Source of the DNA: Deltaproteobacteria bacterium
GTDB taxonomy: Bacteria; Desulfobacterota; Syntrophia; Syntrophales; UBA5619
Direction: 5' to 3'
Length of the DNA stretch: 33,534 bases
Assembly (NCBI GenBank): GCA_016935075.1
Contig: JAFGRP010000142.1
Location: forward strand, 1 to 33,534
How positions within the stretch are numbered: position 1 is the stretch's first letter; each line of letters starts with the position of its first letter. The notes beneath the pieces are model-generated. The model made no database searches, was not told the DNA's origin, and saw nothing but the letters and a program-made list of their open reading frames with translations. Below, piece after piece: positions 12,228 to 23,490 of the stretch. Both the position numbers and the translations under genes were made by a program.

Positions 12228-12322
12228 GGAAGTGCAAAGGTCACTGGTGGGCCTCCCGGACTTCAAATCCGGAGTGGGGGGCTAGACCCCTCCCAGGTGG
12301 GTTCGATTCCCATGCACTTCCG
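12228..12322 (+). tRNA. selC: tRNA-Sec (anticodon TCA), 3' CCA encoded at 12323-12325
   Basis: GGAAGTGC...GCACTTCC 8-bp acceptor stem, anticodon arm CCGGACTTCAAATCCGG, long variable arm GGGGGGCTAGACCCCTCC, TTCGATT T-loop, G discriminator + CCA; 95 nt, as in bacterial tRNA-Sec. Confidence 0.97.
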
Positions 12323-14371: not shown

Positions 14372-15184
14372 TCAAGTGGAGGTCTTTCCCTGCCAGGGAT
14401 CGCCGGGGATCAGGGTCGCCAACCGCTTGAATACCAATTCGGTCCCCTGGGGGAGGTCAAAGCCGCTGCGGGCAGCCACAAGCGGTGCGATATCGGCGAT
14501 GAATCTCGGATCATCGAGTTTCGCCAGGAGATTTCGCTCGAATTCGGCGCGTGAGACCCTGTGCCCTTCCTTCTCCAGGTAGTGCAAGAAACAACCGACC
14601 ACTTGCACCGGCTGCGGCTTGCCGGTGGCAAAGGCCGTCCACAAGTCGAACAGATCCCGGCCCTTTCTCCGCTGGTACAGTGCCCGCACCTTGGTGCCCA
14701 ACAACTCGTCAAGCTGGTAGGTCAGGATGGAGGCACGGCCGGAGAACCAGCGCGACGCGATCTCCATCTCACGTTTTTCGAATCCCAAAACCGTGAAATG
14801 TTCACGGGAATTGATCTCCAGCTTGAGCCTCATGGGGGCGCCTTCTTCGGAGGTCATCCGGTGGGTCAGGGTCACCCGGCCCTCGCCCTGCTTGCGTTTC
14901 GGAATCCCGAGCCAAGGATTAAGCTTTTCTTGGAGGGCGCTCATCACCGGGCCGATGGGGCCGGGGTGCACTTGCACCAGGTCGATGTCCTCGGAATAGC
15001 GAAGCGGCGGCAGATAGAGTTTGAAGAGCGCCGTCCCGCCCCGAAAGGCAAGGTGGTCCTGCAGATCAGGATGGTTGAAGATCTCCACCAAGGCCCGGCA
15101 GATGATCAGGTCCTGCTCCACTTGGTCGTTCTGGGTCCAGGGAGCCGCTTTCTTCCATTCGGAGATGAAATCCCGAGGGATCAT
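14372..15184 (-). CDS. Nucleotidyltransferase AbiEii/AbiGii toxin family
   Basis: MIPRDFISEWKKAAPW...LAFRGGTALFKLYLPPLRYSEDIDLVQV (GG[ST]...DxDL nucleotidyltransferase motif); ATGA overlap with upstream abiEi. Confidence 0.9.
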   Translation of the reverse strand: MIPRDFISEWKKAAPWTQNDQVEQDLIICRALVEIFNHPDLQDHLAFRGGTALFKLYLPPLRYSEDIDLVQVHPGPIGPVMSALQEKLNPWLGIPKRKQGEGRVTLTHRMTSEEGAPMRLKLEINSREHFTVLGFEKREMEIASRWFSGRASILTYQLDELLGTKVRALYQRRKGRDLFDLWTAFATGKPQPVQVVGCFLHYLEKEGHRVSRAEFERNLLAKLDDPRFIADIAPLVAARSGFDLPQGTELVFKRLATLIPGDPWQGKTST

Positions 15185-15963
15185 AGGTCGGGCTCGACTT
15201 GGGTGTTGACAAGGAGGTTCCAAGGTTTCAGCCGATTGATTCCTTCAAAAGGGAGCGATGGCGCAAGCGGGGTCGGCGGCGGGTTCTTTATAGTGATGTA
15301 TTTACCCAGTTCTCTGGTCTTCTCCTTTGCTCCCACCAACTCAAGGAGATACCCCAGCCTCTGCGCCCAGGTGATGGGTGAAAGCCCCGCCAACCGGGCC
15401 AATTCCTTTCCCTTCAGCTTCTCAGCCAGTTCCGCCAGTACGGTGGCCACGTTGTCCAGTCCCGCCCCATGGTCTGGATAGCCGACCAGGTCATAAGTCG
15501 TCGCCTCCGGGGTGGATATCTTCAAGTACCCCCGCGGGGTCTTGAAATCTGTAATGGGGATCCGGTCCATGTTCTTTCTGGCCACAAAGATCACCCTAAT
15601 CTGTCCGCAGGTCATCGCCGGTTTGTTCTTGGCGACCACGACCTGAAAGACCTGGGGCCGCTGATGGGCCGCGCCGTGATACTCGGCAGCGCTGAGCAAT
15701 CCCGCGTAGTACTTCTCGCCGAGGTGCTCCATCAAGGCCGGCAGGAAATGGCCCGCAGGCAAGCAGCCTGCCTTCCGGTATTCGGGAGGGATAATAACAT
15801 AAAAGCCCTTGTAGGGCATGGCGATCTCGCCCTTCTGACGCAGGCGGCGGAGCGCCGCCCGGGTGGCCACCGCACTAGTCCCCAAAGCCTGTGCCGCTTC
15901 GCCGGAACTGAAGCTGTATCGTCCTTTCGCAACAAGGTCGGTGATGAATTGCATTGCCGCCAC
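15181..15963 (-). CDS. AbiEi-type antitoxin/transcriptional regulator (GTG start; ATG 15954 also possible)
   Basis: N-terminal wHTH YSFSSGEAAQALGTSAVATRAALRRLRQKGEIAMPYKGFYVIIPPEYR...ALMEHLGEKYYAGLLSAAEYHGAAHQRPQVFQVVV...ATTYDLVGYPDHGAGLDNVATVLAELAE. Confidence 0.88.
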   Translation of the reverse strand: MAAMQFITDLVAKGRYSFSSGEAAQALGTSAVATRAALRRLRQKGEIAMPYKGFYVIIPPEYRKAGCLPAGHFLPALMEHLGEKYYAGLLSAAEYHGAAHQRPQVFQVVVAKNKPAMTCGQIRVIFVARKNMDRIPITDFKTPRGYLKISTPEATTYDLVGYPDHGAGLDNVATVLAELAEKLKGKELARLAGLSPITWAQRLGYLLELVGAKEKTRELGKYITIKNPPPTPLAPSLPFEGINRLKPWNLLVNTQVEPDL

Positions 15964-21893: not shown

Positions 21894-22194
21894 TTTTTGT
21901 TCCTCCCTGTATGGGTTCGCAGTGTATGATTACCCGGGCAGCATTATATGTCAAAACCGCCATTCCCGCGAAAGTGGAAATCCGGAATTTGACTGGATGC
22001 CGGATCGGGCCTGCCCATACCTGATACGGAATCCGGCATGACATTTGATATGTTGCATCGCCGGAGTAATACTTCGATAATAAAATACTTTATGACGCGT
22101 AAAGAATAAGATGAACGACCTCGTATGTCAATGAAAAATTTTCTTTGAAAATATTTCTTGACTTTCCATCCGTCCTGTCTTATGGCATCGAGCA

Positions 22195-22246
22195 AGCGGG
22201 AATTTATGGTTAATTGCTCCGCTATACAAATGTGCTAAAGTGCCGG
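22195..22246 (+). ncRNA. SAM-II-like riboswitch aptamer upstream of metK
   Basis: P1 AGCGG(22195-22199)/CCGCT(22219-22223); loop GAATTTATGGTTAATTGCT ending in UUGC-N before P1; then AUACAAAUGU-GCUAAA-GUGCC. Matches the recalled SAM-II core (GAUUUAA..UUGCA, AAAUGUAGCUAAA); GG/CC can form the pseudoknot. From memory, not searched. Confidence 0.72.
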
Positions 22247-22259
22247 AGAAGGACTCATG

Positions 22260-22283
22260 ACCCGCGCTTTGGTGCGGGTTTTC
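22260..22283 (+). terminator. Terminator-like hairpin in the metK leader (candidate expression platform)
   Basis: ACCCGCGC-TTTG-GTGCGGGT followed by TTTC, ending ~25 nt before metK ATG. Confidence 0.5.
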
Positions 22284-22308
22284 GCTATTTATCAAAAGGA
22301 GAGAATAC

Positions 22309-23490
22309 ATGCAGATTTCATCGGAAAGCATCAAGGTCGGGCATCCCGACATCGTCGCGGACATGATCGCAGCCAACATCATCGCCACCATCCTCGACCG
22401 GGAGCACAAAAAGGGAATGACCATCGACACCATGCCCCACTGCGGCATCGAGGTCTTTCTCGGCAAGGGACTCTGTGTCGTCGGTGGCGAGATCAGCACG
22501 CGGGCCTGGATCGATCTGGACAAGTGCGTCCGGGAGACGGTCCTCAGTCTCGGCTACAACGACTCGGCGGTCGGACTCAACGGCAACTCACTCGGCGTGC
22601 TGAACGCCATCATCCCCCAATCGCCCGACATCAACATGGGTACCCGGGCCGATACGGGCAAACACAAGGAGATCGGCGCCGGAGACCAGGGGATCATGTA
22701 CGGCTTCGCCTGCGACGAAACTCCGGAACTCCTCCCCCTTACCTACGTTCTCGTCAGCCGGATGATGCGGGGCTTCGAGAACTGCGGCGACCCGATCTTC
22801 GCCCCGGACGGCAAAGGGCAGGTTTCGGTGGATTACGATGAAAAAACGGGGAAACCGGTCCGTTTGGCCAAGGTCCTGATGTCAAACGCCATCGACTACC
22901 GATTTACAAAGGGGAAGAACGGCTGCGCGATCGAACGGAAGGCCCGGAAAATCGCCTTTGACTGTCTGAAGGACTGCGTTGACCAAAAGACGGAGTTCCT
23001 TTTCAACCCGACCGGGGAGTGGCAGGCCGTCAATTCGTGCAGCGCGGCCGATTCCGGAGTGACAGGCCGGAAACTGGTCGTCCAGTTTTACGGCGGCTAC
23101 CCCGGCGCCCAGCTCGGGGGCGGCGCGGTCGTAAACAAGTCGCCGGAGAAGGTGGACTGCTCCGCCGCCTTCGGATCGCGCTACGTCGCGAAGAACATCG
23201 TCGCTGCGGGTCTCGCCGCAAAGTGCTCCGTGCAGCTCGCCTATGCAATCGGGATTGCCTGTCCCTTCTCGATCTATGTGAACACCTTCGGCACCGGGAA
23301 GATCACCGACAAGAAGCTGGAGAAAATCATCGAAAAACTCTTCGATCTGACGCCGGCCGGCATGATTCGGCGTTTTGACCTCCTGAACGGCGACCTCTAC
23401 CGCCGGATCCCGCGGACCCTTTTCCTGGACGACTATCCCTGGGAAAAAACGGACATGGTGAAGCAGCTCAGGAAGGAAGCGGGGCGGTAA
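22309..23490 (+). CDS. metK: S-adenosylmethionine synthetase (divergent)
   Basis: SSESIKVGHPDIVADMIA; GAGDQGIMYGFACDETPELLP; GGYPGAQLGGGAVVNKSPEKVDCSAAFGSRYVAKNIVAAGLA...AIGIACPFSIYVNTFGTGKI; RBS aaaaggaga. Confidence 0.92.
   Translation: MQISSESIKVGHPDIVADMIAANIIATILDREHKKGMTIDTMPHCGIEVFLGKGLCVVGGEISTRAWIDLDKCVRETVLSLGYNDSAVGLNGNSLGVLNAIIPQSPDINMGTRADTGKHKEIGAGDQGIMYGFACDETPELLPLTYVLVSRMMRGFENCGDPIFAPDGKGQVSVDYDEKTGKPVRLAKVLMSNAIDYRFTKGKNGCAIERKARKIAFDCLKDCVDQKTEFLFNPTGEWQAVNSCSAADSGVTGRKLVVQFYGGYPGAQLGGGAVVNKSPEKVDCSAAFGSRYVAKNIVAAGLAAKCSVQLAYAIGIACPFSIYVNTFGTGKITDKKLEKIIEKLFDLTPAGMIRRFDLLNGDLYRRIPRTLFLDDYPWEKTDMVKQLRKEAGR

Follow-up and report, generated by a model that had tools for sequence, protein, structure and literature searches.

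Comparative analysis indicates that positions 22195–22244 of the window (the whole 33,534-nt stretch of DNA analysed here) very probably form a SAM aptamer of the SAM-II lineage, in a form specific to Syntrophales, and we predict that this aptamer acts as an OFF switch for metK. The host clade is Syntrophales (Desulfobacterota), as its nearest named relatives are MAGs of Syntrophaceae/Syntrophales. The comparative data support the proposal of the earlier note that a SAM-II-like element provides feedback control of metK, with SAM as its inferred ligand. We class the element as a lineage-specific variant of SAM-II and not a new fold; what is new lies mainly in the host order, in metK as the target, in the arrangement of copies in arrays and in the tandem copies that precede an orphan protein family. 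The gene predicted to be regulated, metK (22309–23490, with its ATG at 22309), encodes a SAM synthetase of 393 aa, which matched TIGR01034 with 311.4 bits (cut-off 309.4) together with three S-AdoMet_synt domains and was the single metK match in the 2.87-Mb source genome (~91% completeness). Its Shine-Dalgarno sequence, AAGGAG, was read from the sequence at 22296–22301. The gene and all features of its leader described below lie on the + strand.

Architecture of the metK leader element

Re-reading of the sequence placed P1, the UUGC loop, the GCUAAA strand and an 8-bp hairpin ahead of metK exactly where they had been claimed. The 5' strand of P1, AGCGG (22195–22199), pairs with CCGCU (22219–22223), a 3' strand assigned from the sequence and from the P1 pairing statistics, with 98.3% of cells paired in 36 sequences. 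The helix encloses the 19-nt GAAUUUAUGGUUAAUUGCU, which holds the loop 1 UUU (22203–22205), the predicted third strand of a SAM-binding triplex, followed by GGU (22208–22210), the 5' strand of pseudoknot helix P2a, and by AAUUGC (22212–22217), the 5' strand of the core pseudoknot helix, in which UUGC is invariant. Between the 3' strand of P1 and GCUAAA lies the linker AUACAAAUGU (22224–22233). GCUAAA itself (22234–22239), the 3' strand of the putative SAM-binding core, is invariant in our alignment A1 and is directly followed by GUGCC (22240–22244), of which GCC (22242–22244) serves as the 3' strand of P2a and partner of GGU, an assignment that draws on P2a pairing in metK leaders.

In SAM-V, SAM is contacted by U8–U10, A18, U19, U20, G21 and U47–A50, and those of SAM-II are described as very similar (PMC6061858). 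By alignment to these contacts, the equivalent positions in the window (U22203–U22205, A22213, U22214–G22216 and U22236–A22239) all carry the expected base. The UUU at 22203–22205 would correspond to U8–U10 of SAM-V, U22236 to U47 and A22239 to A50. The second and third U of the loop 1 UUU are invariant in A1, and the first is variable in some relatives (GAGUUA type). Facing the amino acid end of SAM is an A, in some copies replaced by C, the base of the RF00521 consensus.

Conservation and base pairing across Syntrophales

With the window included, an alignment of 36 sequences (A1) and, alongside it, a covariance model (R1) were built. R1 scored the window element at 70.8 bits (E 1e-16), the sole strong match in its own genome, where the next reached 15 bits; the element is far beyond chance. 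More than 100 relatives were found by R1 in 85 of 155 Syntrophales genomes, mostly with E-values of 1e-9 to 1e-19, and some Syntrophales metK genes were without the element. Across 395 sampled Desulfobacterota genomes, strong matches were restricted to Syntrophales. Weak matches in other Desulfobacterota (E 0.002–0.01) were judged to be due to chance, except for one locus accepted by RF00521 (L161, see below). An attC-type recombination site, suggested by repeats, was ruled out by the fixed promoter, terminator and metK context.

In leaders of metK relatives the consensus reads A-GCGG[G/U]-RAUUUA-n-GGU[C/A/U]AAUUGC-U-CCGCU-AUAYAAAUGU-GCUAAA-GYRCC, with a hairpin and a U-run after it. Among 70 non-redundant leaders, a 26-nt core was ~94% identical, as compared with ~31–34% in the flanks (60 nt upstream and the stretch 11–25 nt downstream). 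A protein-binding leader or plain attenuator that contains no small-molecule aptamer would also show some conserved sequence, for which a terminator and a promoter alone would suffice. However, conservation peaks at bases that in SAM-II are unpaired or tertiary (UUU, UUGC and GCUAAA), which would be superfluous in an attenuator, and no leader peptide was seen, leaving this explanation scarcely credible.

Base pairing in the proposed SAM-II fold was assessed helix by helix. P1 showed compensatory changes on both sides in two of its five pairs, and the pair counts of the whole structure exceeded those of shuffled and slid controls (36 sequences in both cases). For P2a, 95.5% of cells were paired in 22 metK leaders, again exceeding controls, the outer pair occurring as G-C, A-U, U-A and G-U and the inner pair as U-G or U-A. 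A register-free permutation of the pseudoknot partners gave no signal (7.51 versus 7.53), probably because GG/CC is nearly constant. The covariation of P1 and an H-type pseudoknot by which SAM-II is recognized was found, with modest support for P2a; pseudoknot covariation is present but modest, and conservation in the SAM-II register is the stronger argument. In pseudoknot-free folding the window was not significantly stable (z -0.86), and it is therefore comparison, not folding energy, that carries the case. The expectation that orthologous metK leaders would show conservation and covariation was borne out by A1, R1, the pairing of P1 and P2a, and a second model, R2, described in the next section.

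Relationship to SAM-II and SAM-V

The Rfam check for SAM-II that had been proposed came out negative: RF00521 scored the window at 11.8 bits (E 2.6, 22186–22258), short of its cut-off of 36, which places the window outside RF00521 under the present model. An Rfam scan of the window at gathering thresholds reported only a selenocysteine tRNA (tRNA-Sec) and nothing in the metK leader. Apart from the 11.8-bit SAM_alpha match, a permissive scan returned weak matches attributed to chance, with none in the window to SAM/SAH (RF01727) or SAM-Chlorobi (RF01724), two families that are likewise lineage-restricted and located before metK (PMC2864571). Among the copies of the order, RF00521 accepts just L105b (43.6 bits) and L106 (41.6 bits); the standard model finds almost none of them, scoring above its cut-off in 2 of 149 Syntrophales genomes versus the 85 of 155 in which R1 found matches. 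At loose E-values, RF00521 gave mostly noise across the order and matched control genomes too, and for this reason only above-cut-off scores or matches confirmed by eye were kept. In the opposite direction, R2, which was trained on 22 metK leaders only, none of them Rfam-accepted where scanned, detected the Rfam-accepted L106 with 36.1 bits (E 9.6e-8). Through this match, the sequence evidence indicates that the element and the accepted SAM-II members are of common descent.

Like SAM-II (SAM_alpha in Rfam, RF00521; described as the metA element by Corbino et al. 2005, PMC1273637), the element consists of one P1 and a pseudoknot. The two have in common the GAUUU loop strand, CUUGC/AUUGC, GCUAAA and the 3' strand GCC(GG), as well as the layout of a promoter a few nt before P1, a terminator after the pseudoknot and SAM genes downstream. 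In contrast to RF00521, which has UUGCAg, the 3' strand of P1 starts one nt after UUGC (UUGC-U-CCGC), the Syntrophales linker is AUAYAAAUGU and not UUAAACAAGUC, P1 has 5 bp and P2a is short, with 3 bp; the position of P1 relative to UUGC, the other linker and the short P2a plausibly account for the low RF00521 score. The GG/CC pair, which in the earlier note looked like covariation, is nothing out of the ordinary for SAM-II, since the 3' strand of the RF00521 consensus likewise contains GGCC. The hosts also differ, Syntrophales here versus mainly Rhizobiales and Rhodobacterales for SAM-II, which in a few cases is also mentioned from other Proteobacteria and from Bacteroides (Corbino et al. 2005, PMC1273637), and metK does not appear in the list of SAM_alpha targets given by Leyn et al. 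2014 (PMC4239095). In the open-licence literature searched, we found no published report that links SAM-II with Syntrophus or Desulfobacterota. With this element, SAM-II-type control would come to include metK in a Desulfobacterota order of syntrophic bacteria. SAM-II long loops (RF01726) also has GAUUUG, UUGCAACC and UGCUAAA in common with the element, and its model gave weak matches to B-type or canonical copies only (26.9 and 25.1 bits, cut-off 44).

The ligand core of SAM-V (RF01826) is nearly identical, too. SAM-II and SAM-V have a common binding core (PMC6061858), and metK would be under SAM control either way, which makes it reasonable to consider a SAM-V-like translational switch whose aptamer directly occludes the metK ribosome-binding site. 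However, RF01826 had no match in the window up to E 10. SAM-V is translational and its P2a includes the Shine-Dalgarno sequence, whereas here the 3' strand of P2a (22242–22244) lies ~50 nt from the Shine-Dalgarno sequence (22296–22301), with a terminator between the two, as also follows nearly all relatives. The SAM-V assignment offered as an alternative in the earlier note is therefore no better fit, and a translational switch of this kind is highly improbable.

Promoter, terminator and predicted antiterminator

A promoter is predicted from TTGACT (22158–22163), a 17-nt spacer and TATGGC (22181–22186), which would start transcription a few nt before P1; the -10 box of the window is weak, with 3/6 matches. 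Of 72 non-redundant leaders, 55 carry TTGA[C/T] at a distance of 34–42 nt upstream of GCGG, 40 of these at 37 or 38 nt, compared with 3.2 expected from shuffles; such fixed spacing would have transcription start immediately ahead of P1, in agreement with what is described for SAM-II. Downstream of the aptamer, the hairpin ACCCGCGC-UUUG-GUGCGGGU with a short UUUU tract (22260–22282, -14.3 kcal/mol) is the predicted terminator, its arms at 22260–22267 and 22272–22279 forming 8 bp with one G-U. Of the hairpin and U-run claimed for this leader, the hairpin was found as described, but the U-run was merely UUUU followed by CGC, where relatives mostly have 5–9 U; with a tract this short, termination may be incomplete. 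A strict scan of the + strand for terminators (at least five T in eight) and promoters reported nothing, and comparing leaders was more successful. A hairpin with a T-run follows 94 of 97 elements, and two of the other three are the first aptamer of a back-to-back pair. A promoter before P1, a terminator after P2 and a SAM or methionine gene downstream were all found, which is the arrangement around the aptamer described for SAM-II (PMC1273637).

The candidate antiterminator has as its left arm UAAAGUGC (22236–22243), which overlaps the SAM-binding strand and can pair with GCGCUUUG (22264–22271), at -8.8 kcal/mol in the window's sequences. Across leaders, the GCUAAA strand with the next five bases paired with the 5' arm and loop of the terminator at a mean of -8.0 kcal/mol, compared with -6.0 kcal/mol for non-cognate partners (0/500 permutations as strong) and -4.6 for shuffled partners; such permutation tests ignore relatedness, and the antiterminator figure is optimistic, reflecting in part a few subfamilies that change together. 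The partners co-change, as in AAAGCAC/GUGCUUU, AAAGUGC/GCGCUUU and AAAGGC/GCCUUU, with compensatory changes between subfamilies at three pair positions of the antiterminator, and in the B-type copy L110 the terminator loop was read to contain CUGUUUAGC, the exact complement of GCUAAACAG. Because the antiterminator is incompatible with both the pseudoknot and the terminator, it predicts that SAM turns metK off; from these pairings we infer the antiterminator and the OFF direction. When SAM is low, the left arm would be free to pair with its partner, consuming half of the terminator 5' arm, and polymerase would read on into metK. When SAM is plentiful, strand 22236–22243 would be held in the pseudoknot triplex, the hairpin at 22260–22279 would form and transcription would stop ~27 nt before the metK start codon. 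The element lends itself to testing whether the ligand-binding strand doubles as the antiterminator.

With the same aptamer, the main antiterminator could instead be formed by the P1 5' strand, GCGGG (22196–22200), with CCCGC (22261–22265) in the terminator 5' arm, so that SAM would act by locking P1. ViennaRNA does include this pairing when transcripts that stop at 22267 and at 22271 are folded to minimum free energy. However, most Smithella-type and GGC-type leaders combine AGCGGU or AGCGGC with CCCGU arms, making the five GCGGG/CCCGC pairs impossible, whereas pairing of the GCUAAA strand is present across subfamilies. We consider a P1-based antiterminator unlikely, and take the GCUAAA strand as the predicted left arm.

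Gene contexts and tandem arrays

A total of 109 unique elements were collected, including a few false matches; many came from a metK protein search, so the following proportions are biased. About 50 of the 109 precede metK of the window's type (MQISS), 19 precede a metK ~38% identical to the window's, one precedes a third metK type and two an mtnA-metK pair, the distant MetK subfamilies behind elements showing 37–40% identity to the window's. One aptamer lineage is found before distantly related SAM synthetases, and in a sister lineage SAM-I has taken its place. A Syntrophaceae MAG has, in its metK leader (L063, 2838–2933), a SAM-I riboswitch (56 bits) with a terminator at the site where relatives carry the SAM-II-like element, which is an orthologous replacement. 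A single leader from another Desulfobacterota family (L161, 1490–1727, - strand) carries SAM-I (54.2 bits) and then SAM_alpha (38.6 bits), ahead of an unidentified protein.

Variants of other SAM riboswitches have changed ligand. A related pseudoknot that responds to another ligand, such as SAH or a different sulphur metabolite, would be in keeping with elements that precede genes without a known SAM link and with a position outside the Rfam model. However, all contact positions are kept, several distant metK types and mtnA lie downstream, SAM-I occupies the same place in L063, and SAM-I and an RF00521 element stand together in the L161 leader, which makes a changed ligand very unlikely and SAM the expected one.

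The window carries a single aptamer copy. Elsewhere, an A copy followed by a B copy, each with a terminator, was found before metK in G015 and before small proteins in several genomes, and in G082 two aptamers directly adjoin each other. At L180 (G147:C165:60019–60179), an mtnA-metK pair, which brings methionine salvage together with SAM synthesis, is preceded by two complete copies that each have their own terminator. The metK at L181 (G126:C3:87398–87652) has three aptamers ahead of it, a back-to-back pair and a single one, with two terminators among them. At L165 and L166 (G043 and G081), tandem A/B copies stand before small uncharacterised proteins that have no known SAM link, one zinc-ribbon-like with 111 aa and another of 100 aa. 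Among 154 genomes, 8 encode an orphan family (MAIKVTF.../MAITVKF..., 110–180 aa), and in seven of these it follows one or two elements (L208–L214, in G132, G153, G105, G102, G126, G134 and G147). Pfam and NCBIfam searches with the small proteins behind tandem copies gave no convincing match, and these tandem copies point to genes with a possible response to SAM.

Leaders with two SAM aptamers are already known as tandem SAM-II and SAM-II/SAM-V (PMC9481103, PMC2704228), with 44 cases of tandem SAM-II reported (PMC9481103). The Syntrophales arrays differ from these in having subtype A followed by subtype B, a triple array (G126:C3) and arrays before the orphan family. It is conceivable, though we regard it as doubtful, that the elements constitute a separate SAM class of Syntrophales origin, kin to SAM-II as SAM-V is, that controls metK with the SAM-binding strand as direct antiterminator; if so, tandem and triple arrays would give steeper responses, and genes outside known SAM metabolism would have been recruited.

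Two further features were observed in the window. The selenocysteine tRNA lies at 12228–12321 (+) and matched RF01852 with 79.2 bits, from which the host probably makes selenoproteins. An AbiEii/AbiEi type IV toxin-antitoxin pair is encoded at 14372–15223 and 15181–15963, both on the - strand (PF08843 and PF09407).
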